From a virus, in IMG/VR virus record IMGVR_UViG_3300045954_000074, positions 1-34,302 of that record: 34,302 nt of DNA. One strand, 5' to 3'. The notes beneath the pieces were generated by a model. It was not told the DNA's origin and did no database searches. It saw only the letters and a program-made list of their open reading frames with translations. Positions 2,176 through 17,823 of the stretch are shown in pieces (position 1 is the stretch's first letter; every line of letters starts with the position of its first letter). A program made the position numbers and the translations under genes.

Positions 2176-2596
2176 CGACAGCGAAATACAGGAACAATTA
2201 AATATACTCGCATCAAGACTTCAAAACCTTGACCCAGTTTACAAAAACATTGGTGAGTACATGGTACTCAGCATCCTAGATCGCTACGACAAAGAAATAG
2301 ATTCTCAAGGGAAACCTTGGGCACCATTGACCGCAGCAACAATTAAACAAAAACAACGTAAAGGAAAAATCCAAAAAATTCTACAACAAGATGGAAACTT
2401 GAGATTAACAATAATTTATCAAGCATCAGCTTCACAAGTGGAAATTGGCACAAACCGCATTTATGGAGCCATTCACCAGTTTGGGGGGAGGGCAGGAAGG
2501 GGGAAGAAAGTTAATATTCCTGCTCGTCCTTTTTTGGGGGTTAGTGTTGTTGATGAAAGGGAAATTGTGGATATTATTCAGGATTTTTTATCCTAA
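2153..2596 (+). CDS. Mu gpG-like virion morphogenesis protein
   Basis: The 147-aa product fits the phage virion morphogenesis (Mu gpG) family. It has an N-terminal helix with hydrophobic spacing, the typical QGKPWAPLTAATIKQK region, a central LxxSIxY-like strand, GAIHQFGG, and PARPFLGVS near the C-terminus. In Mu it acts in head-tail joining/tail completion. It overlaps gpF by 23 bp. Its stop overlaps by 4 bp the stop of the leftward zinc-ribbon-like gene, which marks the edge of the inserted opposite-strand cassette. Confidence 0.85.
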   Translation: MSVTLKIDDSEIQEQLNILASRLQNLDPVYKNIGEYMVLSILDRYDKEIDSQGKPWAPLTAATIKQKQRKGKIQKILQQDGNLRLTIIYQASASQVEIGTNRIYGAIHQFGGRAGRGKKVNIPARPFLGVSVVDEREIVDIIQDFLS

Positions 2597-2841
2597 TATT
2601 CACAGGTTTCTGTATAGCATTGTTGCGGTTCAATATACTTGCCATTCACTTTTTGAAAATAAAATGCGTTCGGGTCGCTTAAGTACGGAGCTTGTTCGGT
2701 GCATTGGGCATCATGAGATAAATAATTAGTGTATTCTATCCCCATATTCCGATTGCCCTCAGAATCAATGTGTTGAAAAATGGCTCCACAGTTTGGGCAA
2801 GGGCCAATGTATCCTGCTTGGGGTTTGAAATCTCTTGGCAT
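2593..2841 (-). CDS. small CxxC (zinc-ribbon-like) protein of an inserted cassette
   Basis: The 82-aa product has a CPNCG motif at residues 15-19 and further cysteines at about 47, 75 and 80, so one metal site is possible. I do not recognise the family. It lies 2 bp downstream of the repeat-containing gene on the same strand, so the two form a cassette oriented against the surrounding head operon. Its 3' end overlaps the gpG stop by 4 bp. Confidence 0.55.
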   Translation of the reverse strand: MPRDFKPQAGYIGPCPNCGAIFQHIDSEGNRNMGIEYTNYLSHDAQCTEQAPYLSDPNAFYFQKVNGKYIEPQQCYTETCEY

Positions 2842-2843
2842 TG

Positions 2844-3497
2844 TTATTTTCCTACTGCGTAAAGTGAAATATTTGTTACCGTGCCGCTGGTGGCGATGGA
2901 TGTGATTTTTGCCCTAATTGCGGTAACTGGTTTGCCCGTTGTACTTACTGCCGAACCAGCGGTTAAACCAGTTAGGCTAGCCAGGGTAAACCAGCTACTG
3001 TTAAGCACAGAACCTTCTAAATCGCAATTAAAGCTAGTAAGAGTACCAGCACCAGTAATAGAGGTTAGTTGCAAAGTAAACTCGCTACAAACTCCTAACA
3101 GCGCAACAGCGGAGGAAGTGGAGGTGATTGGTGAGACCGTATAAGTCAGTAAATTGCCATTATCCGCTATCGTAGATACTCGAATCCTGTTGCCGGATAT
3201 CGTACTGGTAACAGTTGTGATTTTGTCTAATAGCCTTTTTACAAGGCTGATTAAACCCGTATTTGCGGTGTCTGAGTTTGCAGCTGAGTCAGTTGCAGTT
3301 CCAACAACAGTTGTGATTTTGTCTAATAGCCTTTTTACAAGGCTGATTAAACCCGTATTTGCGGTGTCTGAGTTTGCAGCTGAGTCAGTTGCAGTTCCAA
3401 CAGCAGATTTAATATCATTCAGAATTTCTGATGAATCAGATCCTGAGGCTTCATTTGCTATATGTACTTTTAGATCCCCTTCCGAAGTGAAGTTCAT
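2844..3497 (-). CDS. repeat-containing probable virion surface/tail protein
   Basis: The 217-aa product opens with MNFTSEGDLKVHIANEASGS, then carries two identical 32-residue repeats containing the motif NTGLISLVKRLLDKITT. A Thr/Ser/Gly-rich beta-type C-terminal half follows, with alternating hydrophobics and no cleavage signal. Similar 'DTGxxSLIxLxKRLLxxLT' repeats followed by a beta domain occur in phage tail, fibre or decoration proteins, which supports a virion surface role. It is transcribed against the flanking head genes and diverges from the protease gene across a 27-bp dyad. Confidence 0.6.
   Translation of the reverse strand: MNFTSEGDLKVHIANEASGSDSSEILNDIKSAVGTATDSAANSDTANTGLISLVKRLLDKITTVVGTATDSAANSDTANTGLISLVKRLLDKITTVTSTISGNRIRVSTIADNGNLLTYTVSPITSTSSAVALLGVCSEFTLQLTSITGAGTLTSFNCDLEGSVLNSSWFTLASLTGLTAGSAVSTTGKPVTAIRAKITSIATSGTVTNISLYAVGK
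3211..3402. repeat. perfect 96-bp tandem duplication
   Basis: Positions 3211-3306 and 3307-3402 are identical over all 96 bases, read base by base. The unit is 32 codons, so the frame of the leftward gene is kept and the protein carries two identical repeats. Complete identity suggests a very recent duplication or ongoing homogenisation. Confidence 0.95.
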
Positions 3498-3573
3498 TGT
3501 TTGATATTTAAATAATTTAAAACTAGCATTAGAATTTTAATTAATCTATCCTGATATTTTTCAGACTTCCAAT

Positions 3574-3600
3574 TCACAATTCTCTTTAACAGAATTGTGA
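3574..3600. promoter_or_regulatory. perfect 10-bp dyad at the start of the protease gene
   Basis: TCACAATTCT (3574-3583), a 7-nt spacer and AGAATTGTGA (3591-3600) form a perfect inverted repeat between the divergent genes at 3497 and 3597/3603. As RNA it is a hairpin that includes the GTG at 3597 and ends 2 nt before the ATG at 3603. As DNA it is a candidate operator. No Shine-Dalgarno sequence is present, so translation may be hairpin-controlled. Confidence 0.6.
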
Positions 3601-3602
3601 TT

Positions 3603-4496
3603 ATGAAACTTCTGCAAATCTTTAAACGCGGCAAACACACAGCAATGAGTGGCGTTACTCTCAGTTTTTCCGAGAGTGATATTAAAACATCTATTAACGC
3701 CTATGACCCAGAAATACACGAAGCCCCCTTGGTAGTGGGGCATCCCAAGACTGATGATCCTGCATACGGCTGGGTAAAATCACTTTCTTATAAAGAAGGT
3801 GTAATGGAAGCTCTACCTACACAGGTAGATTTTGACTTTGCCCAGATGGTAAATGAAGGGAAATTTAAAAAGATTTCCGCAAGCTTTTACCCCCCCGATA
3901 GCCCAAATAATCCCGTACCTGGAGTCTACTACCTCAAACACGTAGGGTTTCTAGGTGCTGCTGCACCAGCCGTAAAAGGCTTGAAAACAGCCAGTTTTGC
4001 AGAAGATGAAGAATATATTGAAGTTGAACTTGACTTTTCTGAATTTTGTCAATATCAAACAAAGGATAAGGGTAAAACTTTGGATGAAGAATTAAAAGCC
4101 CGTGAGGCGGCTCTCACTGAGAGAGAGAAAAAGCTTAAAAAATTAGAAGCAACTAGCTTTGTTGAAGGTATCAAAGGCAAAATATTGCCTGCTTATAGAA
4201 ATGGTTTAGTTGAGTTTATTAGTAGTCTAGATCCTGAAACAGAGATTGAATTTTCAGAAGGGGGTAAAACAACTAAAAAGCCCAGTTCCGACTTTATTAA
4301 AGAACTATTAACAAATCTTCCAAGTGTAGTTGAATTTAAAGAAATAGCCGGAGGGGAAACACCAGAACCAGAAACAGACCCACACAAGATTGCTATAAAA
4401 GCACGCCAGTATGTGGCTGACCAGAAAGGAAAAGGAATTGATATCTCCTACACGGAGGCGGTTGAGTATGTGATGCAAGGGGGTAGTAACAAGTGA
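3603..4496 (+). CDS. Mu gpI-like prohead protease/scaffold
   Basis: The N-terminal half matches the Mu I protease family: IFKRGKHTAMSG, then AYDPEIHEAPLVVGHPKTDD with a candidate catalytic His at about residue 47, PAYGWVKSL, and KKISASFYPP with candidate Ser at about 92/94. Residues ~155-190 are a charged coiled coil (KAREAALTEREKKLKKLE). The C-terminal part is acidic, as expected for the internal scaffold (Z-type) region. The product should build the procapsid and cleave itself and scaffold. GTG at 3597 would add two residues; I prefer ATG at 3603. The stop overlaps the next gene as GTGA. Confidence 0.85.
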   Translation: MKLLQIFKRGKHTAMSGVTLSFSESDIKTSINAYDPEIHEAPLVVGHPKTDDPAYGWVKSLSYKEGVMEALPTQVDFDFAQMVNEGKFKKISASFYPPDSPNNPVPGVYYLKHVGFLGAAAPAVKGLKTASFAEDEEYIEVELDFSEFCQYQTKDKGKTLDEELKAREAALTEREKKLKKLEATSFVEGIKGKILPAYRNGLVEFISSLDPETEIEFSEGGKTTKKPSSDFIKELLTNLPSVVEFKEIAGGETPEPETDPHKIAIKARQYVADQKGKGIDISYTEAVEYVMQGGSNK

Positions 4497-4852
4497 GGAA
4501 GCATACATTGATTGACTGTGCAATCCCTGAAGGGGAAATCCCTCCATATCGCATTGTCAAATACGGCACGGGTAAAGGAAGCGTGACTCTAGCCACCGCC
4601 GCTACTGACAAAATTATTGGAACTTCAAACCATCTACTAACACTAGCCACAGACATGCGAATTGACGTTCACAAAGGTGGTATTGGTGAAGTTGAATATG
4701 GCGGCAACGTTACAAAGGGAGATTTCCTAACTGCTGATAGCCAAGGCAGAGCAGTAGTTGCCAGCACTGGAAACCGCATTATAGGCATTGCAGAGGAAAG
4801 TGGCGTTTTAGGTGATATCAGCTCGTATTTATTCGCACCAGGAAAAATCTAG
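4493..4852 (+). CDS. DUF2190-like capsid decoration protein
   Basis: The 119-aa beta-rich protein has the DUF2190 pattern: an early YRIVKYGTGKGSVTLA strand, a repeated glycine-rich beta core (GGIGEVEYGGNVTKGD), then FLTADSQGRAVVAS and NRIIGIAEES. In Mu-like and lambdoid phages such proteins sit between protease and major capsid protein and serve as decoration or stabilisation proteins. The start is GTG, coupled to the upstream stop by a 4-bp overlap, with GGGGGT as probable ribosome binding site. Confidence 0.75.
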   Translation: MRKHTLIDCAIPEGEIPPYRIVKYGTGKGSVTLATAATDKIIGTSNHLLTLATDMRIDVHKGGIGEVEYGGNVTKGDFLTADSQGRAVVASTGNRIIGIAEESGVLGDISSYLFAPGKI

Positions 4853-5794
4853 ATGAATAATAAAGCACCATTTCCAGTTGACCCAGCACTTACCGCTATT
4901 GCAATAGCTTACCGTAATACCCGCCTAATAGCCGATGAAGTTCTACCAAGAGTTCCTGTAGCACGGCAGGAATTTAAGTGGTGGAAATTTGCAATGGATG
5001 AAAATTTCAGAATCCCTGATACTAAAGTCGGTCGCACTTCCCGACCCAACGAAATCGAGTTTTCAGCCGATCAAGAATCAGATAGTACGGAAGATTTTGC
5101 ATTAGATGATCCAATTCCACAATCGGATGTAGAGAACGCTTCCGAAGGTTATGATCCCGTTGGTCGGGCCACAGAAAGCCTGACTGACTTAATCATGCTA
5201 GATCGGGAAAAAAGGTGTGCTGATATAGTATTTGACGAGAACACCTATCCAGCCAGCCAGAGAGAAACATTATCTGGGGCAGACCAGTTTAGTGATCCAT
5301 CTAGCAAGCCAATAGTCAAGTTAATGAGGACTATGGACAAGATGATCATGCGCCCAACAATTATGGTCATAGGTCGTTTGGCTTTCACGGATATGATCCA
5401 GAATCCTAGTATCGTTCGTGCATATAACAAAAACGATGGGGGAGATGGTGTAGTTGATAGTCAATTCCTGGCAAATATATTAGGGCTGGAGAAGGTGCTA
5501 GTTGGGGAAGCATGGCTAGTAACCTCCAAAAAAGGACAAGCGAATACAACTGCTAGGGTATGGGGAAAACACATCTCATTGCTGCACCGTGATACATTAG
5601 CTAACCCAACCACCGGCACGGCTGGAAGACCTACCTTCGGGATTACTGCCCAATGGGGAAAAAAAGTAGCTGGACGGATTCCAGACCCTCATATTGGTAT
5701 GCGTGGTGGTGTACGTGTTCGTAGCGGCGAGTCTGTAAGGGAATGTATTTGCGCCCCTGACTTTGGCTACTTCATCAAAAACGCAGTTGCGTAG
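4853..5794 (+). CDS. major capsid protein (Mu gpT-like position)
   Basis: The 313-aa product starts directly after the DUF2190 stop. Its features fit HK97-fold major capsid proteins of Mu-like phages: an N-terminal DPALTAIAIAYRNTRLIADE region, an acidic loop with tryptophans (KWWKFAMDENF), the E-loop-like DDPIPQSDVENA, and a C-terminal P-domain/A-domain end (FGITAQWGKKVAGRIPDPHI). Position between decoration protein and gp36-like connector strongly supports the call. It is the main shell subunit. Confidence 0.85.
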   Translation: MNNKAPFPVDPALTAIAIAYRNTRLIADEVLPRVPVARQEFKWWKFAMDENFRIPDTKVGRTSRPNEIEFSADQESDSTEDFALDDPIPQSDVENASEGYDPVGRATESLTDLIMLDREKRCADIVFDENTYPASQRETLSGADQFSDPSSKPIVKLMRTMDKMIMRPTIMVIGRLAFTDMIQNPSIVRAYNKNDGGDGVVDSQFLANILGLEKVLVGEAWLVTSKKGQANTTARVWGKHISLLHRDTLANPTTGTAGRPTFGITAQWGKKVAGRIPDPHIGMRGGVRVRSGESVRECICAPDFGYFIKNAVA

Positions 5795-5802
5795 GAGGGA
5801 TC

Positions 5803-6234
5803 ATGAACTACGCAAGTCAAGATGACATGGTGGAGTTATTCGGCTACCAAGAGATAGTTGACCTTACCAACTTAGAAAATCCCGGTGCTAACACAATAGA
5901 CTCAGTACGCCTTGAAAAAGCCTTAGAGTACGCCTCTAGAGAGGTAGACTCATACCTCCAAGCACAGTACACATTACCTCTTCCGATTATTCCTTTAGTT
6001 CTGAAGAACAAGGTAGCCGATATTGCCAGATATCAACTCGATGGTTATAAGGCTAGAGAGGATGTTAGACAACGCTATGAAGATGCTGTGAAGTGGCTTC
6101 AAAGGTTAGCTGAGGGAAAAGTGAGTCTGGGACTGGATCAAACTTCCCAACAACAGGTTAGTGTCAGTACTGTACACTACTACACCCCAGACAGAGTATT
6201 TACCCCAGATATTTTGAGAGATTATGTTAGCTGA
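5803..6234 (+). CDS. DUF1320 (Mu gp36-like) head-tail connector
   Basis: The 143-aa product opens MNYASQDDMVELFGYQEIVD, the usual start of DUF1320 proteins, followed by helical AREVDSYLQAQYTLPLP and a helix ending in DAVKWLQRLAEGKVSLG. These proteins form the connector ring between portal and tail. A good ribosome binding site (GGAGG) lies 6 bp upstream of the ATG. Its 3' end overlaps the next gene by 11 bp. Confidence 0.85.
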   Translation: MNYASQDDMVELFGYQEIVDLTNLENPGANTIDSVRLEKALEYASREVDSYLQAQYTLPLPIIPLVLKNKVADIARYQLDGYKAREDVRQRYEDAVKWLQRLAEGKVSLGLDQTSQQQVSVSTVHYYTPDRVFTPDILRDYVS

Positions 6235-6649
6235 AATTGAGGAAGCGATCATCAACCGCTTGCAGACATTACAAGATGATGGGGTGCGCGTGATCGGCTT
6301 TCCTGATAATGCCAACGAATTAGGGAAGCCAATGGGTGTAGGTCAAGTCTTGGTTGGCTTCAAAAAAGAATCTCTATCATCAGCAACAGGCAATGTTTTA
6401 ACAGCACCAATTGTTCAAACTCATACCCTCAAATTTGAAATAAGTCTGCAACTCAAGAATTTACGGTCCCACAGTGGAGCATACCCAATCATGGATAGAA
6501 TCCGGCAGTTGTTAACGGGATTTAAACCAATTGAACTATTAAAACCTATGTATCAAAGTGAAGGGGGATTCATAGACATAAAAGAAGGCATCTGGTATTA
6601 CTCAATGATTTTTGATTTACAAACTTATTACACTAAAAAACTAATTTAG
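6224..6649 (+). CDS. Mu gp37-like tail terminator/neck protein
   Basis: The 141-aa product has the Mu gp37 family layout: an N-terminal helix (IEEAIINRLQTL), a beta region with VGQVLVGFK, a strand pair around HTLKFEISLQLKNL, helix YPIMDRIRQLLTGF, and a C-terminal beta hairpin (WYYSMIFDLQTYY). Proteins of this size and position close the tail tube below the connector. It overlaps the DUF1320 gene and is followed 9 bp later by the tube protein. Confidence 0.75.
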   Translation: MLAEIEEAIINRLQTLQDDGVRVIGFPDNANELGKPMGVGQVLVGFKKESLSSATGNVLTAPIVQTHTLKFEISLQLKNLRSHSGAYPIMDRIRQLLTGFKPIELLKPMYQSEGGFIDIKEGIWYYSMIFDLQTYYTKKLI

Positions 6650-6658
6650 GAGTTAAAA

Positions 6659-7441
6659 ATGCTAAGTGGCGTTGGTCAGTTGGGAATCTTCACATTAGAT
6701 CAAACAAGTAAAACTTTAGGTCAAGATGTCTTCTTTCCTGGGCTGTTTGTTGATTTCAGCTATGATGGTGAGTCCCAAAAAAAAGAAGCAAAGGCTTGGG
6801 TTAGTGGTGTTAAAAAGACTGTATCATCAGCAGTTGGAGAAGAAACATATACCCTGAAACTTGCCTTTGAATACCTGGATTGGACACATCTTGGATTCGC
6901 CTATGACGAAATAGCCCAAGTTTCTCAAAATGTTGTTCTACCAATATTTAAAACGGCAACAGTTCCCGCAAGTACAGCATACGAAACTGCTGATAATGAT
7001 ATTACCACTACCAACGGAAATAGTATTAAAGTTTATGTACCCAATAGAGGTGCATGGGGCGAAGCTGGATTTAGACAGAGAACATCAAATAACCCATCTG
7101 CTAAAGAATTTAAAGTCGATACAACTGCTAAAAAGCTAATTTTCCATTCTTCTGACGCTGGTGCAACAATACAATACTCCATTAATCAAACTTATGCTTC
7201 GATTGAAAGTATTGGCTATGAAGCAACCGCAGACTCCTTTGGAAAATTAAGTTTTATTGGTAAAGGATACGGCCCCGAATTTCCGTCTGGAATCATCATC
7301 TATTTACCTAGTATCACTAGAAGTTCTATTGTTTCGATGAGTACTGATGATGTGCCTAAGTTTGAAATAGAGTTTTCATGTAACGTTCCGGCTGGGAAAC
7401 GCACTCCTCACCAATACTTTAACTTGGCTACAGCTACATAA
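6659..7441 (+). CDS. probable major tail tube protein
   Basis: The 260-aa product is beta-rich, with no membrane segments. It begins MLSGVGQLGIFTLDQTSKTL and contains long alternating strands plus a likely immunoglobulin-like insertion around residues 95-175 (TADNDITTTNGNSIKVYVPN). Its place directly after the gp37-like gene, with no sheath gene nearby, suits a siphovirus-type tube. The assignment rests mainly on position and beta content. The ribosome binding site is GGAG. Confidence 0.65.
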   Translation: MLSGVGQLGIFTLDQTSKTLGQDVFFPGLFVDFSYDGESQKKEAKAWVSGVKKTVSSAVGEETYTLKLAFEYLDWTHLGFAYDEIAQVSQNVVLPIFKTATVPASTAYETADNDITTTNGNSIKVYVPNRGAWGEAGFRQRTSNNPSAKEFKVDTTAKKLIFHSSDAGATIQYSINQTYASIESIGYEATADSFGKLSFIGKGYGPEFPSGIIIYLPSITRSSIVSMSTDDVPKFEIEFSCNVPAGKRTPHQYFNLATAT

Positions 7442-7927
7442 GTGAAGAAAGTAACCCTGACATTGCCTAGTTCTGATCTGCCCAATCTGGTGCTTTATCA
7501 AATACCAGATGGGGCTGATGATTTTGTGCTGAGATCAACTGTTGATGTAATTAAAGCAGGTGAGCAGACAAACCAAGGGGTGGATACTTTGGAGGGGGCG
7601 GGGAAACAGTTTTTTGTCTGGTCGTTTCAGGTTTGTGTGTCCCAAGATGAGGCTTTACTATTCGACGAGGTGCGATCGCAACAGCAAAGCCTTTATCAAG
7701 GTAGGACAGACGGCAAGATAACTTTACAAGATGAGCGATATTGGGTGGTTAACAGCGATTCCACCAAAAATTTAAGGAGTCGTTTTGACGGGACGGCAAC
7801 CAGTTGGGGCGGGACAAAATACCGCATATCCTGCCCCGTATTTCTAAGAATCCCAGAAAACCACAGTTCCCAGATGGCTGAGGATATGTGGCTTTTACAG
7901 TTTGATGCCAAAGAGCTAACCGCGTGA
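7442..7927 (+). CDS. last gene of the head operon, probable tail protein
   Basis: The 161-aa product is unrecognised. It has an N-terminal beta region (KKVTLTLPSSDLPNLVLYQI), a tryptophan-rich middle (QFFVWSFQVCV) and a C-terminal strand ending QFDAKELTA. It starts with GTG immediately after the tube gene stop, without a clear ribosome binding site, suggesting coupling. Its last 12 bases overlap the end of the convergent tail operon. The only HIP1 octamer noticed in the window (7672-7679) lies here. A minor tail protein is the best guess. Confidence 0.55.
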   Translation: MKKVTLTLPSSDLPNLVLYQIPDGADDFVLRSTVDVIKAGEQTNQGVDTLEGAGKQFFVWSFQVCVSQDEALLFDEVRSQQQSLYQGRTDGKITLQDERYWVVNSDSTKNLRSRFDGTATSWGGTKYRISCPVFLRIPENHSSQMAEDMWLLQFDAKELTA

Positions 7928-8188
7928 ATCCATAAATGCTTGACCACTAGCGGTTCTGCCAATGGCAGGCACTACATCACCAATGCGTATCCCTGCGTTG
8001 GTGATACTTTTTGTTCGCATGATTCCACCATCTGGAAGGTTTACCTTCTGCTGTCCGGTTGTGGGATCGTATTCGCCCATCGTGCCAGTTACGCCTGATG
8101 CAGCTGCTTGGGTTATACGCTGGGTGTTTTGAGTGTGGCGATATTCGATTTCACCGCGCGTTTGTATCAATCTGGTTAAATCGGTCAT
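7916..8188 (-). CDS. small baseplate/spike-like protein, paralogue of the VWA protein N-terminus
   Basis: I start this 90-aa protein at the ATG at 8188, because ATG and the upstream TGA overlap as ATGA. An upstream extension to 8269 would lie inside the VWA gene. It begins MTDLTRLIQTRGEIEYRHTQ and has MGEYDPTTGQQKVNLPDGG. The VWA protein begins DDLTRKIQKQSEVQYQRTQ with IGEYHQESGRYKVIYPNGG, so the two are tandem paralogues. The short N-terminal helix plus small beta domain with a D/NGG turn suggests a tail-tip structural module. It is the last gene of the tail operon. Confidence 0.65.
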   Translation of the reverse strand: MTDLTRLIQTRGEIEYRHTQNTQRITQAAASGVTGTMGEYDPTTGQQKVNLPDGGIMRTKSITNAGIRIGDVVPAIGRTASGQAFMDSRG

Positions 8189-9069
8189 TTCAATCCTAGT
8201 AATTCTTTGATGTCTTGTAAGTAAAAATCTGAAGGTGTGGCAGCAGGTAGGCTGAGAGTATAGGAACAATCGTATTTCTCCAGTCCTGGTGATGGGTAGG
8301 GTGATGCACCATCGATAGCAGCCTGAACGTGGGCTGCAAAAGCCGATTCTACTTGCGGATCTGGGAGATATTCGATTGAATAAACTCTGCCTTTGAAAAA
8401 TTTTCTCTGTGCATAAGCATCAATAAAATTAATTCTGTCCCGTGCAAAGTCTGATGTTGGTTCCTGTGAAACATCTCTGGGAACCTCGTGATATACGCTA
8501 TAGGATTCATTAATGAACGCCAGAATTACAGCTTTATTGGCTTCTGTTTCTTGATCAACTCTGGGATCAAATGAGAAAAAATTCAGCCAATTCTCACTGC
8601 CGTCTAATCGAATTTGAAAATATTTATCTACTCTTTCTTGAGTTTGGTAAATAGTTTTTTTGAGTAGTGTTTTTAGCTGATTTAAAGCATTTTCAATAGC
8701 TGGAATTTCAGCATCCATACTTCCACTAGTGTCTATGAAAGCAATGATGTAAGTATCTAATAATGTTAATGTTGGCGTTTCTTCCTCTTCGATTTGAGGG
8801 GGAATATGTTTTTTGTAATCCAGGCTAATAGATTGCGCTCCATAAGCTTGAGTTGCTCTGATTGGAGTGCCGTCAGGGACACTGGAGTTAAATAGTTTTA
8901 CTCCAGAAATTACCTGTCCCCCGTTTGGGTAGATTACTTTGTATCGCCCAGATTCCTGGTGATATTCGCCAATTTTTAGTAATGGTGGTGGTTTGATTTT
9001 CTGTTTTTGGGTGCGTTGATATTGCACCTCTGATTGTTTTTGGATTTTTCGAGTTAAGTCGTCATCCAT
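8185..9069 (-). CDS. von Willebrand factor A (VWA) domain protein in the tail operon
   Basis: The 294-aa product has an N-terminal ~90-residue module shared with the next gene, an acidic linker (EEEE), and a VWA domain. The domain begins at strand TYIIAFIDTSGSM, where D113-T-S115-G-S117 is a complete MIDAS metal-binding motif. The following helix, LNQLKTLLKK, and strands (WLNFFSFDP) fit the Rossmann-type fold. VWA domains bind protein ligands through a divalent ion. Its place suggests a tail-tip or adsorption role, which is inference. A heptamer-type repeat (CCATTAC, 9066-9086) spans the start and provides GGGT as ribosome binding site. Confidence 0.8.
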   Translation of the reverse strand: MDDDLTRKIQKQSEVQYQRTQKQKIKPPPLLKIGEYHQESGRYKVIYPNGGQVISGVKLFNSSVPDGTPIRATQAYGAQSISLDYKKHIPPQIEEEETPTLTLLDTYIIAFIDTSGSMDAEIPAIENALNQLKTLLKKTIYQTQERVDKYFQIRLDGSENWLNFFSFDPRVDQETEANKAVILAFINESYSVYHEVPRDVSQEPTSDFARDRINFIDAYAQRKFFKGRVYSIEYLPDPQVESAFAAHVQAAIDGASPYPSPGLEKYDCSYTLSLPAATPSDFYLQDIKELLGLK

Positions 9070-9085: not shown

Positions 9086-9766
9086 CTAAATGACCACACC
9101 GTACTGGAATATTTTTCCTGCACTGTCTATGGTTTGGGTAAAGAGATAGTCCTCGAATCCCGCGAGGATTCCCTGGCTACTGCCTCTCGTTGCAATTCCT
9201 CCATTGAGAATGCAGAAGTAGCGGAAGGTTATAGAGCCGCTAGTTGGTGAAAATGTAGCATTGACAGGCCCTAAGGTTGCTTGTCCCAATGTGTAGTTAA
9301 TGGTTGCCGAAGGAGGTGTTATGGGCTGCCGGGCGCTGCCAAAGTAGCTTGCAACTTCTTTCCGTACCCACACGTCTAGGTCATCTTTAGCAGCCAATGG
9401 TCGCTCAGTAATGGTCGTTGTACCACTGCCGGCACTGGTGATATCAATTGGCGTTCCCGTTTTTGTAGCAGGGTTATAGGTGCTTTCGATACAAACTTGA
9501 AAAGTTGAGCCTGAGACGGTTATCACCCTGTACTCTGTGTTTGTCGCTAGTCCTCCGGGCAGGCTTCCACCGACATTAGAGAATGTTATACGATTGCCGT
9601 TGACAAAATCGTGTCCGGTGGCGGTAATGATTTCTGAGCCGCTGTTGACGCTGGACATAGTAACGACTGTCGGGTTGTCTTGTACCAGAAAGGCGTACCA
9701 GCCGGTTGCTGAGTGGATTGCGTTAAGTGCGCGTTGTTTCTCTTTTAAGGATTTCTCGAAGGTCAT
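9086..9766 (-). CDS. tail/fibre-like structural protein with a beta domain
   Basis: The 226-aa product has a short N-terminal helix (EKSLKEKQRALNAIHSATGW), then a beta domain at about residues 35-115 containing TGHDFVNGNRITFSNVGG and a Thr-Glu-Tyr-Arg-Val strand. That pattern recurs in phage tail fibre and baseplate proteins. The C-terminal part (GPVNATFSPTSGSITFRYFC) is another beta module. No enzyme motif is seen. It overlaps the ferritin-like gene by 44 bp and lies 16 bp before the VWA gene. Confidence 0.6.
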   Translation of the reverse strand: MTFEKSLKEKQRALNAIHSATGWYAFLVQDNPTVVTMSSVNSGSEIITATGHDFVNGNRITFSNVGGSLPGGLATNTEYRVITVSGSTFQVCIESTYNPATKTGTPIDITSAGSGTTTITERPLAAKDDLDVWVRKEVASYFGSARQPITPPSATINYTLGQATLGPVNATFSPTSGSITFRYFCILNGGIATRGSSQGILAGFEDYLFTQTIDSAGKIFQYGVVI

Positions 9767-10370
9767 GTGGTATGTAAAGTATGGCTTTTATAGCCTGAAA
9801 GTACCATTTAATTAAGTATAAATAGGCATGAACAATGCCCATTTCATCAACTAAAGCATTCCAAAGATATTGGTGATGCTTGTCTTCATCTTGGGCAATT
9901 TTTTTGAGTATCTGTTGTAAAGAGTTATTAGCCAAGGTACTTAAAAAGTAATAGAAAAGCTTGCCCAAATTTTCGCCTATACACATAAATGCCAGGCTGT
10001 CAGCCCAATCATAATCAGCAGCTTTGCGTTGGTTAAAAAATGCCCTGGCAGTAGCATATTTTATGCTTATTCCGTCTGTGTGCTGCCACTGTTTTGTATT
10101 GCCGTTTTTAGTCCATTGAATTGAATTGTCAGCAAAATATTCTGAAGTTGTAGCAATAAATCCTATTTTTGTCCGTTGGGGTCTATTTTGCTTGTCAAGT
10201 AAGCTCCATAGCATTTTAGCATGGACATTTTCTTGATTGGCATGATGCAAAAGTTCATCTGCTAGTTTATCCTTTCCTTCCTCCTTTGCTTGCAAAGATT
10301 TTTTCAAGCAGAAATCATGAAATCCACATTCTAATTTTCCTAAAAATCGAATAAGTTGTGTGGTTCTCAT
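9723..10370 (-). CDS. ferritin-like diiron protein
   Basis: The 215-aa product is almost all helical and carries both halves of a ferritin-like four-helix diiron site: E14 in helix A, E47-N-V-H50 in helix B, E133 in helix C and E162-D-K-H165 in helix D. Spacing of the two ExxH motifs fits ferritin, rubrerythrin or related oxidases/oxygenases. An insert of ~40 residues (FADNSIQWTKNGNTKQW region) lies between helices B and C. The C-terminal hydrophobic stretch (HAYLYLIKWYFQAIKAILYI) may be a membrane-associated or packing helix. It is translationally coupled (ATGA) to the gene before it, within the tail operon. Function is unknown: iron handling, oxidation or a purely structural bundle are all possible. 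Confidence 0.75.
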   Translation of the reverse strand: MRTTQLIRFLGKLECGFHDFCLKKSLQAKEEGKDKLADELLHHANQENVHAKMLWSLLDKQNRPQRTKIGFIATTSEYFADNSIQWTKNGNTKQWQHTDGISIKYATARAFFNQRKAADYDWADSLAFMCIGENLGKLFYYFLSTLANNSLQQILKKIAQDEDKHHQYLWNALVDEMGIVHAYLYLIKWYFQAIKAILYIPHDLREILKRETTRT

Positions 10371-10717
10371 CAGAATGATTCAATAGTGATAATTCCGTTG
10401 AGATTGTCCATTGACACACAGCAGCAGTCCCACTGAATGCCTGAGCTTGGTTTAGCTGGATTCTTTTGGAATAAAGATATTCCTTGTTGCTGAGTGCTTG
10501 GTGTGATAGTGAAAGTTCCACCTATCGCAGGTAAATTCTTGTACCATTTTCTGCCGTTAAAGTTTGAATTGGCTGCTCTATCCCAGGTTTGAATTTGGAT
10601 AGGGCCAGTTCCGGTATGCCCAGGTTTCAATGCTGCGGTTAAGGTGAGAATTTGATCATAAACGTCTGGACTGAACTTAATAACTTTTCCCCCTACTGAA
10701 CAAGTCCCACAATCCAT
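10370..10717 (-). CDS. small structural protein of the tail operon
   Basis: The 115-aa product is unrecognised. It begins MDCGTCSVGGKVIKFSPDVY and has cysteines at residues 3 and 6, plus a CCC cluster near the C-terminus (WDCCCVSMDN). The middle is glycine/threonine-rich and likely beta. It starts 4 bp after the stop of the hub gene and overlaps the ferritin-like gene as ATGA, so the three are probably translated together. The cysteines could bind metal, which would be of interest next to a diiron protein. Confidence 0.6.
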   Translation of the reverse strand: MDCGTCSVGGKVIKFSPDVYDQILTLTAALKPGHTGTGPIQIQTWDRAANSNFNGRKWYKNLPAIGGTFTITPSTQQQGISLFQKNPAKPSSGIQWDCCCVSMDNLNGIITIESF

Positions 10718-10721: not shown

Positions 10722-12866
10722 TTATCCTTTATAACAGCTTAATTCCATAGGATAATTGATTTTTTCTTCATAATTATATTGCTGATTAACTATCCCAATA
10801 TCAAATATTATTTCATAATTGTACAATGCCTGAACACTAACATTTAAATTGCTGGATAAAATGGTAATCTCATATTCATAATTATTAATAATTGCAGTAA
10901 CATTTAAATTGATTCCATAATCATATGAGGCAATAATTTCAGATGGGAAGTTAGGAAATACCTCATCTGAAATTACGGTAATTAAATAATCATAGTTAGT
11001 GGTAACTTTGATTGTTTGGCGAATTGGTGATGTTGGTAAATCTGGTGTGGTTGGTGGGATATCCCCTATTACTGGGATAGCTCCCAGGTAATTGCCAATA
11101 AAGCTAAATGTTAGGGTTCCTCTTTCCAGCACGATAGCCGGGGAATCCATAATGAATGCCCCATTATGGATGTTAACTGTACTAAATGGGGTTGGGTCAT
11201 CCAGCCATTCAGGTATATCTGATGGTGGGATTGTTATTAATCTGGAGCGATATCTTTGATGCTGCAAGCTGCCAATTAAACTTGCAAGTTCTTGTGCTTC
11301 AGCATTGTTTTGTAAGGTGCTGCAAGATGTCTCAAATTCTTTCTCATAATAAGGGCTGAATGTAGCGGGATAGAATCTCCCTTCTCCCTTAATTGTGATG
11401 CTGCCAATTGGATTGTCAGGTTCTTTAGTAATCCAAGCCGGTGGATTTTGATTCGGTTGGCGTTCTGTAGTTTTTAAAAGCAGTTCGCCCAGGCTGTAAT
11501 ATTTAGATTGGGATTCTACCTCACCACTGCCATCTTTAATAGTCAGATTAGTTTCTATTGAATTTCGTTTATAAATGATTTTTTTGTATTCAAATCTCTC
11601 ACATTTAGGAATTTCTTCAGCGATACCATTTATACTAACTATACTGTCATCGTCTATCCAAGATTCAATAATTTGTTCTTTGGCTGCTAGTTGATATCCC
11701 GATGTCCCAATCGGGAATAATACTTTTTTCGTTGTGGTTTTGCCTCGTAAAACTCCATCATCCCCACCTATTCTTGCAGTACCTGGCAAAGTATTACTGT
11801 ATTCAATTGTCACTATTTCAGCTTTGGTAGATGCCCTGTTGCCGGGGAAGTTATCGGGTAGCGCAACACCCAAAAGTTTGTATGTAATAGTTTCAGATTT
11901 AGTTAATCTGGCTTTGCCATCAAAATAATTAGTTTCTGTGCCATGTTCAGTTTCAATAACTGATTTATTGCCAGGATAAGCATCAGGCAGAGCGACACCT
12001 AAAGCCTGCTCAATTAAAAATTTTCTGCTAATTTGATTCCCTTGTGTTACTGAAGGAAAAATTGTTTCCCGCCTTTGGAGAATTTTCCCCTGTTCATCTG
12101 ATGCAAATTCTTCAGTAATTTGAGGTTCATCTTTCCCGCAGGTGGCAATTTTTTCACAAGCCCCAGAAACTCGGAAAATCTCAGATGGAATCTCTAATCC
12201 TGATTGTCTTTCAAAGACCTTGATTTTGGGACGAGAACGTTGGAACAAGACTGTTGTGGGTCGATAGTTAACAGCGCGGATAATTTCATTTTCATCACAA
12301 TAAAGCCAATAGCCACGTTCTCCACAGATTTGCTGTGCAAGAGAGATATAAGATTCTGAAAATTTATTCGGCGGAACTTGAAACCCCCCACTGATACCTA
12401 TTACAGCGGTAAGTCCTGCCATTTGTAATAGTTTTGTAACTATTGTTGCAGCGGGAATGATTTCTCGGTTGACCTGAAACCCTAACCCCTCAAAATCCTT
12501 AGGGGGCGATTCAAAATCCCGCAGTCCCAGTTGATCAGTCAATTCAGCTTGCCCAGCTAAATTATCCTCGTCGTAAAAGTACTTTTTGATACGGAGAGTG
12601 GTAATCAGCCTGCCCTCAATCCTTACTTTGATGGCGTGTATACCAATTGCCCATCTTTGAGGGTTCTCCAGGTCGTCCAGAGACTCAGCCAGCAATGCGG
12701 GGTTTAATGGATTCTCAAGCACCAAAGACCCTTGCCAAGAATAGGGTGTGGAAATTTCAGCCCTGGGGCGGCGTAAAGTAAATTGACTGACAAGATGGGT
12801 GATATCCCAATTGTCATCGCCGATTGTTAATTGCCAGTTGGAGACTGAGAAATTTAATGGGGTCAT
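10722..12866 (-). CDS. large tail tip/baseplate hub protein
   Basis: The 714-aa product follows the tape measure with an ATGA overlap, the usual place for a tail-tip or hub protein. The N-terminal ~230 residues have features of hub domains: paired strands (NWQLTIGDDNWDITHLVSQF), a central insert with helix SYISLAQQICGERGYWLYCD, and NEIIRAVNY. This SLAQQICGERGYWLY pattern is common in gp27-like hub proteins. Then comes a long beta-rich middle and a repetitive C-terminus with several YDYxI/YNYEI strands. Only the first part is assigned with any confidence. Confidence 0.7.
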   Translation of the reverse strand: MTPLNFSVSNWQLTIGDDNWDITHLVSQFTLRRPRAEISTPYSWQGSLVLENPLNPALLAESLDDLENPQRWAIGIHAIKVRIEGRLITTLRIKKYFYDEDNLAGQAELTDQLGLRDFESPPKDFEGLGFQVNREIIPAATIVTKLLQMAGLTAVIGISGGFQVPPNKFSESYISLAQQICGERGYWLYCDENEIIRAVNYRPTTVLFQRSRPKIKVFERQSGLEIPSEIFRVSGACEKIATCGKDEPQITEEFASDEQGKILQRRETIFPSVTQGNQISRKFLIEQALGVALPDAYPGNKSVIETEHGTETNYFDGKARLTKSETITYKLLGVALPDNFPGNRASTKAEIVTIEYSNTLPGTARIGGDDGVLRGKTTTKKVLFPIGTSGYQLAAKEQIIESWIDDDSIVSINGIAEEIPKCERFEYKKIIYKRNSIETNLTIKDGSGEVESQSKYYSLGELLLKTTERQPNQNPPAWITKEPDNPIGSITIKGEGRFYPATFSPYYEKEFETSCSTLQNNAEAQELASLIGSLQHQRYRSRLITIPPSDIPEWLDDPTPFSTVNIHNGAFIMDSPAIVLERGTLTFSFIGNYLGAIPVIGDIPPTTPDLPTSPIRQTIKVTTNYDYLITVISDEVFPNFPSEIIASYDYGINLNVTAIINNYEYEITILSSNLNVSVQALYNYEIIFDIGIVNQQYNYEEKINYPMELSCYKG

Positions 12867-14989
12867 AGGGGCATGGAAGTGCGGATCAAGTCCATGACTT
12901 CATAAACCTGATTCATCTCATTATCTCCCCGATAGAAGTTAAAAGCGTTATTGCTAATTGGCTTGCGTTGACGCAAGTCTTCTCTTAGTCCCTGAATTTC
13001 CCGGGTCAATTGGTTAAAGTTGCCACCGATACCAGGCGCTACGGTCACTGCCCTGGTGCTAAGTGGGTTCATCAGTTCAGCTACTTTTTTAGCGGAAACA
13101 ACATAACTGTTGGTGTTGGGGACTACAACTTCCGAAACTCCGGGAATAAACTGACCGCCTGGCCCGTCACCTACTAAATAGGGTTGTCCCGCTGTCATCG
13201 GCCCACCAGTGAACCTAGATGTGGGGGGAGCATCAGACGTAGGTCTTTGAGTTTCTTTAGCCGCTGCCTCAGCTTCTTGCTGGGCTTTTTCCTGTGCCGC
13301 TGCGGCTTCCTGGGCAGCTTTCATGGCTTTGGCGAATTTTTCAGCCTCAATCCCTGCCAATTCCATTGATTGAGCTGCCCCCCTGGTTTTGTCACTTACA
13401 TCTAGCTGATTGATCAGAGCTTTTTTATCAGCAGCCAAACGTTCTTGTTGATTTTTGGCTAATTCTGGTTGGAGAGCCAATTGTTGCTGGGCTTGCTGCA
13501 CGTTTTGTTTTGCCAAATCAACTGATTGTTTAGCAAGTTCAACTCCCTGCTGGGCATTTTTTATCGCCTCAGTATCCTTAGGATTCTCATTGGCGGTAGC
13601 CAGTTTTGACTCAGCCGCATTCAAGTTTTGCTTGGCTTGATTTTCGGCTATTCTGGCTTCCGTTAGTGACCGATTAGCAGCAATCTTTTCTTGCTGTATT
13701 TTCAGAGCAGTTAGTTGCTGTTCTCTCTCAATTTCTGCTAATGCCGCTTCACGCTTCTGTTGGGCAATTTTATTTTCAATGCCTTGCCGCTCCTTGACTA
13801 GTGCTAATTCGGTGGTTGCGCCGTCTTTGATTAATTTATTCAGCGCCTCCTGGAGAATTGCCCGCGCTGCTAGGCTATCAGTTTTTTCTATCTCTTTTTT
13901 CAGGGCCAAAGCTTGCTGGAGAACCTGCACTTCACCTTCAGCCTGGCTTTGCTGGAGATTGGCCAAGGATTTTTGAACGGCGGCACGGGATTCTAATAAC
14001 TGTCGCTGACTATCTATGGATTTGGTGATTGCGTCAAAAGCTGCCTTTTCTTTCTCTAATCCAGCAGTGATGTTGGCACTGGCACGGGCTTGAGCGCCTG
14101 CCCTCTCCTCAATCGCCTTAATGGCAGCAGCCTTTATTTCCTCCTGTTTGGCAAATTCATTTTGTAGTAGTTGCAGCTGCAAATCAGTGGTTTTTTGTCG
14201 GCTGGCACGGATTTTAGATTGCCGTGCTTCCTCATCTTCTGGGTTAGCCGATTTTGGCAGTGCTAGTAAAGCTGCAAGCCGCTGTTGCTCAAGCTTCAAT
14301 TCTTCTGCGATGCTGTTTCGCTTGGCATCAAGTCGTTGATTCTCGGCTTGCTTGTGGCTTAAAACTCCTTGGTTGAGTAATTGTTGAATTTGGATTAACC
14401 GGGCGGTTTCCGAGCCTTTAACCGCATCAGCAGCCTTGCTTAAAGAGGTTTCTAAGTCTTTGAGATAAACTGCCTGCTGTTTTTTTAATCCCTCAGTCCT
14501 GGTCTTGAGTAAGTCAACTTGTAATTGGCGTTCTTGGTCTATTAACTGCCGTGCTGTATCACCATTGCCCCTTCCCTCCTGGCGTTCCCTAGCCAGAGCT
14601 GCACGGGTAGCTTGAAGTCTTTTTTCTAACTCCTGCTGCTTCAGTGAAGTTATCCGTACTTCACCGTCAACTTGTCTAATCTGTCCTGTTTCAATCTCAG
14701 CTTGGATTTTCTGTTGCTGAAATTTCACGTCAGTCAATTGCTGATCTGCTTCTCGCTGCTTAATTTTGGTAATTGCCTCAGCAGCAGCCACCTGTTGCTC
14801 AAAGGCAATCTTGGTATTGGTTCGGACTCCTTCTAACTCCTTAATTGCCTCTGCTGCTGAAATTTGCCCTAATTGATGGCGTTTTTCTGTCAACTGGATT
14901 AATTCTTTAAACTCCTCCCGCAAAGAACGAACCTCACCGATAGTTTTTTTAATACCAGAACTTTTAAAACCTATAGTTACTTTTGTCAT
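12863..14989 (-). CDS. tail tape measure protein
   Basis: The start at ATG 14989 gives MTKVTIGFKSSGIKKTIGEV. An upstream in-frame ATG would add a hydrophobic leader that looks like translated UTR. About 500 residues are Gln/Ala/Glu-rich coiled coil (many QQ, EKAQQEAEAAAKE). A C-terminal cap of the type found in tape measures follows (GGPMTAGQPYLVGDG, then FIPG). Tape measures fix tail length and occupy the tail lumen. At 708 aa it would suit a tail of roughly 100 nm by the usual ~0.15 nm/residue rule (inference). It is the first gene of the tail operon, downstream of a strong terminator. Confidence 0.85.
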   Translation of the reverse strand: MTKVTIGFKSSGIKKTIGEVRSLREEFKELIQLTEKRHQLGQISAAEAIKELEGVRTNTKIAFEQQVAAAEAITKIKQREADQQLTDVKFQQQKIQAEIETGQIRQVDGEVRITSLKQQELEKRLQATRAALARERQEGRGNGDTARQLIDQERQLQVDLLKTRTEGLKKQQAVYLKDLETSLSKAADAVKGSETARLIQIQQLLNQGVLSHKQAENQRLDAKRNSIAEELKLEQQRLAALLALPKSANPEDEEARQSKIRASRQKTTDLQLQLLQNEFAKQEEIKAAAIKAIEERAGAQARASANITAGLEKEKAAFDAITKSIDSQRQLLESRAAVQKSLANLQQSQAEGEVQVLQQALALKKEIEKTDSLAARAILQEALNKLIKDGATTELALVKERQGIENKIAQQKREAALAEIEREQQLTALKIQQEKIAANRSLTEARIAENQAKQNLNAAESKLATANENPKDTEAIKNAQQGVELAKQSVDLAKQNVQQAQQQLALQPELAKNQQERLAADKKALINQLDVSDKTRGAAQSMELAGIEAEKFAKAMKAAQEAAAAQEKAQQEAEAAAKETQRPTSDAPPTSRFTGGPMTAGQPYLVGDGPGGQFIPGVSEVVVPNTNSYVVSAKKVAELMNPLSTRAVTVAPGIGGNFNQLTREIQGLREDLRQRKPISNNAFNFYRGDNEMNQVYEVMDLIRTSMPL

Positions 14990-15081
14990 AATCTTTTTGC
15001 CAAAATAAAACATACAAAAAATAGCTACTTTTTTAAAATAAATCAAATCCGAAGTATTTCATACAAACTTATTTCAAGCAC

Positions 15082-15115
15082 AAAAAAAGCCCTATAAACT
15101 AAAAAGTCTAGGGCT
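15082..15115 (-). terminator. rho-independent terminator of the accessory cassette
   Basis: On the minus strand AGCCCTA, a 14-nt loop and TAGGGCT are followed directly by seven T. It lies after the HNH gene and before the tape measure gene, separating the accessory cassette from the tail operon. Confidence 0.85.
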
Positions 15116-15178
15116 GCTAAAAACTTACATTCGTAAAATAAAACTTATACAATCAATTCAAAAAAAACAACAAATACA

Positions 15179-15574
15179 TCAAACCCAAGTATATTGCTGC
15201 CACCTCACAGGAATCAAACCACTCCTAACAAGACTACTAGTTAACGAACGATGCTTTTCATCCTCACGCAAAGCATGGCATACAGGACAAAGCACCCTCA
15301 AATTACTAGCATGATTACTACCCCCACTAGAAAGAGGTCTAATATGATCAATATGACACTCTTTAAAATCCACATCAACCAAACAAAAACCAAAAACTTT
15401 AGGTGCAGCAGTAGGAGGACTCTTGCAAATACCTCCGTCCCTTTCATAAATCCGTCTACGAGTCACATTCCACTGCTCAATAGGCTGGCGCTTCCAACAA
15501 TGAACAAGCTTATAGTCGATATTTCTAGCACTACGTCGCCGCCTCAAATCCTCATAAACCTGTTGATTATCCAT
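15179..15574 (-). CDS. HNH endonuclease
   Basis: The start at ATG 15574 (131 aa) is supported by AGGGG upstream on the minus strand. Residues 73-101 hold the beta-beta-alpha-metal signature: CHIDHIRPLSSGGS with D76-H77, N91 (NLRVLCPVCH), and the CPVC pair. The N-terminus is Arg-rich, likely DNA-binding. Many phages carry such a nuclease for genome packaging or as a homing element. Here it is far from the terminase and ends the accessory cassette, so a packaging role is not supported by position. It overlaps nothing and lies 10 bp after the RAMP-like gene. Confidence 0.85.
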   Translation of the reverse strand: MDNQQVYEDLRRRRSARNIDYKLVHCWKRQPIEQWNVTRRRIYERDGGICKSPPTAAPKVFGFCLVDVDFKECHIDHIRPLSSGGSNHASNLRVLCPVCHALREDEKHRSLTSSLVRSGLIPVRWQQYTWV

Positions 15575-15584
15575 ACAAAAACCC

Positions 15585-16208
15585 CTACTCCTGCACCACA
15601 AAACTCAAAACATCAAACCTTCCATAACCGATAGAAGTCCTGCCGTCGCCCACACCAACCAAAGCCCCAGCCGCCTCCACCGCCGCCTGCATATCTCGCC
15701 GATTAACAATCGTTGCATCCCACAAAAGAGTAAAATCACAAAGCCAGCCAGGAGGAGTAGCTACACGATAACGAATATTACGCCCCTTAGTAGAAGGATT
15801 ACGAACACCAATAACCTCAACATAAACAGGCGGCAATTTTTCAAATCTCATCGTACCAGCCTCAATCTTTTCTGGTGACTCCGGCAAAACCAAAACCTCG
15901 CCACCATTACTCACATAAATTAAATCATCCAAAATCTGCAAACAACTAGCAATAGGCAAAAACAAATTACTCTTTCCTTTTTTAACTGACTTACCTCCAT
16001 GCTTAATACAACCAAAAAAATAAGTAGGCAACAAATACAACCTGCGGTCATCATCCATTAAAACCGTCCGCCTCCATTCATCAGGATTATTACCAGCAGT
16101 TCCACTCCTCTCCTTTGCTTCAGGTGACAAAGCATCAATACCAAAATGATGCCATGTAAGAATACGATTACCCTTAACAGAAACCTTTGCTCTCAAAATA
16201 CTTGACAT
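15585..16208 (-). CDS. RAMP-like (Cas7-like fold) phage protein
   Basis: I start at ATG 16208 (207 aa). An upstream extension would translate a simple repeat. The layout matches a family of phage proteins with a RAMP-like fold: PDEWRRTVLMDDDRRLYLLP near residue 42, a basic stretch HGGKSVKKGKS, and a C-terminal glycine-rich loop after a helix, GALVGVGDGRTSIGYGRFDV (181-200). This G-rich loop is the typical RAMP motif. Family members occur in many phages with unknown function; RNA or DNA binding is only inferred. It is no CRISPR component here: no array or other cas genes are seen. Confidence 0.55.
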   Translation of the reverse strand: MSSILRAKVSVKGNRILTWHHFGIDALSPEAKERSGTAGNNPDEWRRTVLMDDDRRLYLLPTYFFGCIKHGGKSVKKGKSNLFLPIASCLQILDDLIYVSNGGEVLVLPESPEKIEAGTMRFEKLPPVYVEVIGVRNPSTKGRNIRYRVATPPGWLCDFTLLWDATIVNRRDMQAAVEAAGALVGVGDGRTSIGYGRFDVLSFVVQE

Positions 16209-16221
16209 GGCTAAAATCCTT

Positions 16222-16290
16222 ACAGAAAAACTAACAAAACAGAACCTGACAAAACTTGACAAAACAAAACAGAACAAAACAGAACAGAAC
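16222..16290. repeat. AAAACAGAAC-type short repeats in a leader
   Basis: Degenerate copies of a 10-mer close to AAAACAGAAC (plus strand), with AAAACTTGAC variants, lie just upstream of the RAMP-like gene. On the minus strand the transcript leader would be U-rich. Such short repeats are common between genes of filamentous cyanobacteria. Confidence 0.5.
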
Positions 16291-16331
16291 TTAACGCAAC
16301 ATAAGAAGACATATATACAAAGCAATTCTTA

Positions 16332-17381
16332 TCACAGCTTATTAAGCCAATGATAACGTTGCCAATCTTCAGCATCTAAAGTCAAAACAATCACCTCTTC
16401 CGTACCATAAATAGGAGTCACTGAACACCGAAAACGCCAGATATATTCATCCTCATAAACATAATCAAAAAATTCAGTCTGTGCATTAGACAAAGCCTTT
16501 CTAATAGCATAAATTCGAGGTTCACTAATTCGTGAATCCACAATACTTGCAGGTTGTCCAATCACAATCTCACGAGGCTTATTTAATCGCCTTGGATCTG
16601 ACGCATAAAGATCCAAAAACCGAAAACCCTCATCACTAGCATCATGAAGAGAAACAGCAACAGATGAAACACCCATCGCTCTTATAATATCTTGGTGACG
16701 TTGAGCGCGTATCTGGAATTGTTTAAGCTGTACATCTGTATAAACTTGAATCAAATTATCACCACCATTGCTCATAAAATACTCCGCATAAAATTCACTA
16801 CGAGAATTAATCACATCGTAAAGCATCCCCCTCAAAAAAAGTAGTCGTCTTCTTGGAAAACCCAAAGCATCAGCTTTTAAATTAATAACCTCTCGATAAT
16901 ATGAAAGAGTTTTAGCAATCGAATTATCCTGAGTTTCAATCACCAAAACAACTTCATCAGAGTTTCGGATTACTCGAACCTGTTGATAAAATTGACACTG
17001 CTTTAAACATATAAGAGCAGAAGCTTCTTGTACACAAAGCCGAACAAAACATTCAACAAGTTTCTTAATAAGGCTCTGATAATTCTCAGAAGCCTCCTTG
17101 TTTAAATTTTTACCAAGCAAATAAATAGCTGGATAAAAAACAGAAAAGCAAGTTGATCTACCAGGACAAGTCAATCTAATCCGATTAATTAAATCAATCT
17201 TTTGAGCCGCCTTTCTCAAATGATTTTGACGGTGAAGTAAAACTAAAAACAAAAACTCATCAGGACACTCTATTACCAACTCCCCCCGTTCTAAAGTAAT
17301 ACTTGTCGCCTCCTGAATCATTGCCTTATGAAACGACCAAAGACTATCAACAAAGCAACGTAAAGCTTCATCAGCATCCAT
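16332..17381 (-). CDS. PAS-like protein with two repeated strand-helix modules
   Basis: The start at ATG 17381 gives 349 aa. Two similar segments occur in the N-terminal two thirds: ITLERGELVIECPDEFLFLV and, about 120 residues on, NSDEVVLVIETQDNSIAKTL, each a strand pair followed by a helix with LHRQNHL or LSYYREV. The pattern weakly recalls the DnaA N-terminal domain. The C-terminal ~80 residues look PAS-like: IGQPASIVDSR, helix IYAIRKALSN, then strands FFDYVYEDEYIWRFRCSVTP and EVIVLTLDAEDW. The gene at 30899 has a similar layout. A sensor or regulatory role is possible but unproven. Confidence 0.5.
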   Translation of the reverse strand: MDADEALRCFVDSLWSFHKAMIQEATSITLERGELVIECPDEFLFLVLLHRQNHLRKAAQKIDLINRIRLTCPGRSTCFSVFYPAIYLLGKNLNKEASENYQSLIKKLVECFVRLCVQEASALICLKQCQFYQQVRVIRNSDEVVLVIETQDNSIAKTLSYYREVINLKADALGFPRRRLLFLRGMLYDVINSRSEFYAEYFMSNGGDNLIQVYTDVQLKQFQIRAQRHQDIIRAMGVSSVAVSLHDASDEGFRFLDLYASDPRRLNKPREIVIGQPASIVDSRISEPRIYAIRKALSNAQTEFFDYVYEDEYIWRFRCSVTPIYGTEEVIVLTLDAEDWQRYHWLNKL

Positions 17382-17406
17382 TAACAAAAAACCACTATGT
17401 TTAGAA

Positions 17407-17432
17407 AGGGGTGTAATGTAAAATACACCCTA
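17407..17432 (-). terminator. hairpin between two accessory genes
   Basis: GGTGTA and TACACC, extended by AGGG/CCCT with one bulge, enclose an 8-nt loop between the genes ending at 17451 and starting at 17381. On the minus strand it is followed by CCTTTCT only, a weak T tract. It could be a partial terminator or a processing hairpin. Confidence 0.4.
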
Positions 17433-17450
17433 CAAGTAATGGGAAAACTT

Positions 17451-17735
17451 TTAAGCAACAGCTACGATATAAGCAACCGCCTCTTCACTAGTAACGTGTG
17501 ACAAGCGATCAATTATATTCAACGGTTGTGATATCCATGCGCCAGATAAATCCTGATAAAACGTACCTAATAGCCTCATACCAAGCCATACTCGGTACAA
17601 AGCGCCAAAATCACTATCAGGATCTTGATCCACCTCAACCTCCGGCAAAATAGGAGAAAACATAGCAGCCTGAGCTTCTAATTCAGTAAACAACTCAATT
17701 TGTGCTGATGTTATAGTGTCAAACAACTGTGGCAT
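17451..17735 (-). CDS. hypothetical protein, first gene of the accessory cassette
   Basis: I use ATG 17735 (94 aa). A TTG at 17756 would add seven residues. The sequence has an N-terminal helical region (TITSAQIELFTELEAQAAMF), an acidic proline-rich middle (LPEVEVDQDPDSDF), then GALYRVWLGMRLLGTFYQDL and a short C-terminal helix. I do not recognise it. It is expressed from a strong-looking minus-strand promoter that faces away from the HTH gene at 17906, and its mRNA should begin with a long hairpin. Regulation by that HTH protein is likely. Confidence 0.5.
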   Translation of the reverse strand: MPQLFDTITSAQIELFTELEAQAAMFSPILPEVEVDQDPDSDFGALYRVWLGMRLLGTFYQDLSGAWISQPLNIIDRLSHVTSEEAVAYIVAVA

Positions 17736-17763
17736 AATCAAGAAAACCTTTTCCAATAGGTTG

Positions 17764-17815: not shown

Positions 17816-17823
17816 ATGCATTG

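Follow-up and report, generated by a model that had tools for sequence, protein, structure and literature searches.

Organization of the locus

The stretch of DNA analysed here (the window) is a complete virus record of IMG/VR (IMGVR_UViG_3300045954_000074, 34,302 nt). In it, a gene for a ferritin-like protein and a small gene for a cysteine-bearing partner are inserted between two genes of a putative tail operon (Table 1), so called from its position downstream of genes resembling those of a tail tube and a tape measure. No profile names any of the downstream genes of this operon as a tail protein. The reading frame of the ferritin-like protein, which an earlier note on this DNA had picked out, is a real one, running on the minus strand from an ATG, and translation places E14, E47, H50, E133, E162, and H165 exactly where that note had put them.

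Table 1. Features of the two-gene cassette and of the genes that flank it (positions in the window)
Feature	Positions	Strand	Remarks
Conserved tail-operon protein, 226 aa, downstream flank	9086..9766	-	Start overlaps the end of the ferritin-like gene by 44 nt
Ferritin-like (rubrerythrin-type) diiron protein, 215 aa	9723..10370	-	Pfam PF02915 above cut-off; relative in G002 with the six ligands
Ligands E162xxH165, helix 4	9876..9887	-	From translation; identical in G002
Ligand E133, helix 3	9972..9974	-	From translation; identical in G002
Ligands E47xxH50, helix 2	10221..10232	-	From translation; identical in G002
Ligand E14, helix 1	10329..10331	-	From translation; identical in G002
Partner protein, 115 aa, predicted all-beta, C3xxC6 ... 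C98xC100	10370..10717	-	Upstream of the ferritin-like gene
C-terminal peptide of the hub-like protein, NYPMELSCYKG	10725..10757	-	Present only with the cassette; its end doubles as Shine-Dalgarno
Putative tail-tip (hub-like) protein, 714 aa	10722..12866	-	Upstream flank of the cassette; role suggested by position after the tape measure

The stop codon of the partner gene and the start codon of the ferritin-like gene overlap as TGATG, both in the window phage and in its relative G002 (IMGVR_UViG_3300049486_000058), and the ferritin-like gene in turn overlaps the next start, in G002 by 10 nt. The translational coupling proposed in the earlier note is thus confirmed at both ends of the gene. A promoter scan gave 13 hits where chance predicts 12.9, and no separate promoter of the cassette stands out in it. 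The overlaps show that the two proteins would be made together, late, and with the tail. No RNA family was found in the cassette region, and no anti-phage defence family matches the pair.

Two further features of the operon should be mentioned here. The protein encoded at 8185-9069 (minus strand) has a von Willebrand A-like motif (IIAFIDTSGSMD, DxSxS) and is conserved in all relatives, with no match in Pfam. The tape-measure-like protein (12863-15046) is devoid of some 570-600 N-terminal residues, the versions of the relatives having 1243-1369 aa. The missing part is replaced by a 3.4-kb stretch (15046-18450) in which one ORF (15179-15601) is HNH-like and others are unknown; within the same stretch, the frame 15585-16325 (minus strand) has a C-terminal match to the unnamed phrog_4652 (E 1.4e-8). 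The shortened tape measure and this stretch suggest that the window phage may be in decay or may have been shortened or rearranged.

The ferritin-like protein

The window protein matches the Pfam family Rubrerythrin (PF02915) with E 6.8e-8 and 33.4 bits, and its G002 relative does so with E 2.6e-6 and 28.3 bits, both above the cut-off of 22.8 bits. This is the type of profile search that the earlier note had called for, and membership in the ferritin-like superfamily is well supported by it. The other diiron families give weaker matches. That to COQ7 (E 0.0026) is below the cut-off and covers only part of the protein, while the best PDB profile match, the acyl-ACP desaturase DesA2, is not significant (E 0.085), being aligned through E133 and E162xxH165. 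Encapsulin-associated ferritin-like families are matched below their cut-offs (E 0.06-0.07). For the encapsulin-associated ferritin-like cargo TIGR04535/EncB the score is 13 bits against cut-offs of 125 and 90, and the capsid gene of the phage encodes a B3-like major head protein rather than the encapsulin expected near an EncB-type cargo. A search of PHROGs gave no significant match for the ferritin-like protein (best E 0.15).

With the NCBIfam equivalog profile of rubrerythrin (NF045767), the protein reaches 23.2 bits against a cut-off of 200, and Pfam finds no rubredoxin Fe(Cys)4 domain either in it or in the cysteine-bearing neighbour. For these two reasons it is, as judged from its sequence, not a rubrerythrin proper. 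By sequence and conservation it is instead a rubrerythrin-type protein with a complete set of predicted diiron ligands. Its two halves are separated by about 80 residues that include a conserved segment, QWxHTxGISxKY, and its C-terminal helix region is hydrophobic. Three cysteines (15, 21, and 130) are common to both members of the family and do not form a CxxC...CxxC pattern.

The ligand pattern taken alone is weak evidence, because shuffled and unrelated sequences also contain it: the loose spacing E-x-ExxH / E-x-ExxH occurs in 441 of 200,000 shuffles of the protein (0.2%) and in 11 of some 2,577 unrelated reading frames (0.4%), and is therefore uncommon but not rare.

More can be learned from the G002 relative (10922-11617, minus strand), which is 51% identical and is the only one found. 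All six ligands are kept in it, compared to 4 of the 14 other Glu and His residues and 20 of the 41 other polar helix positions, the comparison being one between two sequences. In this one relative, the conservation that the earlier note had wished to see checked is complete. At the nucleotide level, the two genes are 64% identical at codon positions 1 and 2 and 40% at position 3, which indicates that the ferritin-like protein is under purifying selection. The retention of the iron-site residues suggests a working metal enzyme, at a location for which none is known in phages.

The AlphaFold model of the protein, built from an alignment of two sequences, has a pLDDT of 39 and is too poor to serve as a check of the site. 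We attribute the low confidence to the small number of homologues. A Foldseek search with this model returned only noise (best E 1.8). With helices assigned from the same weak model, the ligands lie closer to the hydrophobic helix face than the other polar residues do, the mean distances being 56 and 114 degrees in the window protein (p 0.005) and 50 and 114 degrees in that of G002 (p 0.002). Five of the six ligands point toward the hydrophobic side, the exception being E133. The family match, the conserved ligands, and the helix faces together support the ferritin-like diiron identity put forward in the earlier note.

The partner and the hub-like protein

The partner protein, which had been described as cysteine-rich, has five cysteines, and it is four of them (C3, C6, C98, and C100, in the pattern CxxC...CxC) that are invariant. 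Its predicted structure is weak (pLDDT 63) and resembles an assortment of beta-sandwich proteins with Z of about 5. These matches are non-specific, and we do not interpret them as a fold identity.

The hub-like protein carries four cysteines of its own, C181, C190, C237, and C243, that are kept in each of the four phages compared, whether or not the cassette is present. Because the cassette-free phages share them, the putative metal-sulphur site of this protein appears to be independent of the cassette. The earlier note had raised iron loading of the particle as one possible role; loading of the metal-sulphur site of this neighbouring tail protein was considered and demoted as less likely, the four cysteines being equally conserved where the cassette is absent.

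What does accompany the cassette is a peptide at the C-terminus of the hub-like protein, which reads NYPMELSCYKG in the window and has a similar counterpart, NNPVEVGCFRG, in G002. This peptide is absent in the cassette-free relatives. Its last codons (AAAGGATAA, AGGGGGTAA) are at the same time the Shine-Dalgarno sequence of the small partner gene, and the ribosome-binding-site role could explain part of the similarity. Only the N-P-E-C part is for this reason counted as similarity at the protein level.

Distribution of the cassette

Both genes of the cassette are present in the window phage and in G002, and both are absent in G003/L092 and L090. The latter are two distinct phages in three records, G003 being of the same phage type as L092. 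Their flanking genes are 56-64% identical to those of the window, and in them the hub-like gene directly adjoins the homologue of the gene at 9086, the stop of the former and the start of the latter overlapping in L090 and being about 20 nt apart in G003. The abutting flanks indicate that the two genes are gained or lost together, their co-occurrence being seen in two cases. On this comparison of gene orders, the ferritin-like and partner genes are an accessory two-gene insertion between conserved genes of the putative tail operon. This agrees with the earlier note, in which no standard tail component of this type was known: close relatives do without the gene.

Searches for further copies led back to G002. 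Profiles of both cassette proteins detected no other copy in about 100 loci fetched, and a search by protein or by PF02915 among 45-47 Mu-like records found G002 only. No ferritin-like relative was found in INPHARED or PLSDB. Scans of viral contigs, genome contigs, plasmids, and phages likewise gave G002 only; the exact-peptide scans are blind to distant relatives, and cellular relatives are possible.

The phage and its host

Judging from its genes, the window phage is a Mu-like transposable siphophage. It has a Mu-type portal that matches PF06074, a MuA-type integrase-transposase with a sequence resembling proteins annotated as Mu transposases, and a capsid protein 53% identical to that of B3-like Pseudomonas phages such as Ps60 and JD18. 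No tRNA was found in the window.

The genes of the window run on the plus strand in 1-7927 and on the minus strand in 8185-30148, so that the head-plus-tail block is inverted with respect to that of G003, relative to the transposase-portal part. G002 has the arrangement of the window, while in L109 the transposase, portal, head, and tail genes all point in one direction. The portal of the window has 422 aa, and none was detected in G002. In close relatives, the portal frame stays open through long and variable C-terminal regions, with total lengths of 1376 aa (L085 12358-16488, in G003) and 1031 aa (L087 4033-7128, in G001).

The earlier note had considered infection of a photosynthetic cell, and a cyanobacterial host is indeed plausible, although not proven. 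When the transposase is compared with plasmids, both full-length matches are from Chroococcidiopsis, a cyanobacterium, and the top four include a third cyanobacterial match. The relatives L090 (four copies) and G003 (three copies) are enriched in the HIP1 octamer (GCGATCGC), a sequence characteristic of many cyanobacteria, with about 0.1-0.2 expected in each; the window has one copy, with 0.2 expected, and G002 has none.

Proposed function

Our tentative reading is that the cassette serves as an accessory module of the tail tip or of late assembly, where the rubrerythrin-like diiron protein would act on or with its cysteine-bearing partner. The two proteins would be produced together, late, along with the tail proteins. 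The diiron protein would draw on O2 or peroxide to oxidise its partner or to load it with metal. Once matured, the partner would become part of the tail tip, perhaps where the hub-like protein ends in its cysteine-bearing peptide. Such docking is suggested by the occurrence of the peptide only in the two cassette-carrying phages, and it would resemble JBD30, where the next protein of the tip docks on the C-terminus of the hub (PMC11445458). In its specific form, with a diiron redox enzyme that matures the tail tip or is carried in it and a partner that docks on the hub peptide, the proposal is rather doubtful. The metal content, the redox activity, the interaction with the partner, and the presence in the virion are what we infer in making it.

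Scavenging is a close rival of the partner-maturation reading, although somewhat doubtful in itself. Here the protein would reduce peroxide or O2 in the manner of rubrerythrins or mini-ferritins, or bind free iron, late in the infected cell. The place in the tail operon would then serve only late expression, with the small protein as an electron donor or a passenger. There is a precedent in the Dps-type ferritin-like gene of Lactobacillus phages, which has been read as oxidative protection (PMC6669764). The best family match also fits, rubrerythrin being known for peroxide reduction, and so do the plausible cyanobacterial host and the presence or absence of the cassette as an accessory, which is consistent with a moron. 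The missing rubredoxin domain and the low NCBIfam score (23 against 200) speak against scavenging, as does the precise placement of the insertion between tail genes, where starts overlap and no promoter rises above chance; morons usually have a promoter of their own.

It is unlikely, although close behind the two readings above, that the two proteins, one helical and ferritin-like and the other beta-rich, are simply built into the tail tip, with the metal site providing stability or carrying iron. The location between tail genes, the coupling, and the hub-like peptide that accompanies the cassette are consistent with such a role, and metal-sulphur proteins are known in the tail tips of JBD30, RcGTA, and lambda (gpL) (PMC11445458). 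However, a complete and conserved set of redox-type diiron ligands exceeds the needs of a structural metal, the putative iron site in the neighbouring hub-like protein is independent of the cassette, and neither PHROGs nor INPHARED holds a homologue among known virion proteins. Finally, a ferritin-like fold in which no metal site works, or a chance resemblance of a helical protein to such a fold, would be compatible with the spacing found in 0.4% of unrelated frames, with the pLDDT of 39, and with E133 off the hydrophobic face, but is very unlikely given the PF02915 matches above the cut-off in both members and the six ligands kept at 51% identity.

If the diiron protein does act on the tail, phages would have a step in which a tail-tip protein is matured by redox chemistry. 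Metal-sulphur sites occur at the tail tip of several siphophages, and phage tails have been proposed to act as an "iron Trojan horse". If the diiron protein only scavenges peroxide, its gene would count as a new auxiliary gene of late infection, probably one of cyanobacterial phages. The small size of the cassette and the natural relatives that lack it make either role directly testable.

Comparison with known systems

In the open-licence literature, we came across no phage tail operon described as carrying a ferritin-like or rubrerythrin gene. The phage protein shares with rubrerythrin (PF02915; NF045767) the ferritin-like helices and the E...ExxH motif occurring twice, with Pfam scores above the cut-off in both phage proteins. 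It differs from it in having no rubredoxin domain, in scoring far below the equivalog cut-off, in the middle region of about 80 residues with QWxHTxGISxKY, and in the location of its gene, among the tail genes of a phage. COQ7 and the acyl-ACP desaturases are similar in the COQ7 match, the DesA2 alignment, and the hydrophobic C-terminal helix region, but these matches are below the cut-off and involve only part of the phage protein.

The Lactobacillus-phage genes are likewise of the ferritin superfamily and carried by phages, but they belong to the Dps family and lie in the DNA-metabolism region, uncoupled from tail genes (PMC6669764). Iron or metal chemistry at the tip of a siphophage tail is found in lambda gpL, the RcGTA hub, and JBD30 gp50. 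The metal-sulphur site of gp50 is formed by Cys147, 156, 238, and 245, and its spacings of 9 and 7 compare with 9 and 6 in the hub-like protein of the window (PMC11445458). In these three systems, however, cysteines of structural proteins make up the site, rather than the Glu and His residues of a diiron center, and no such cassette is needed.
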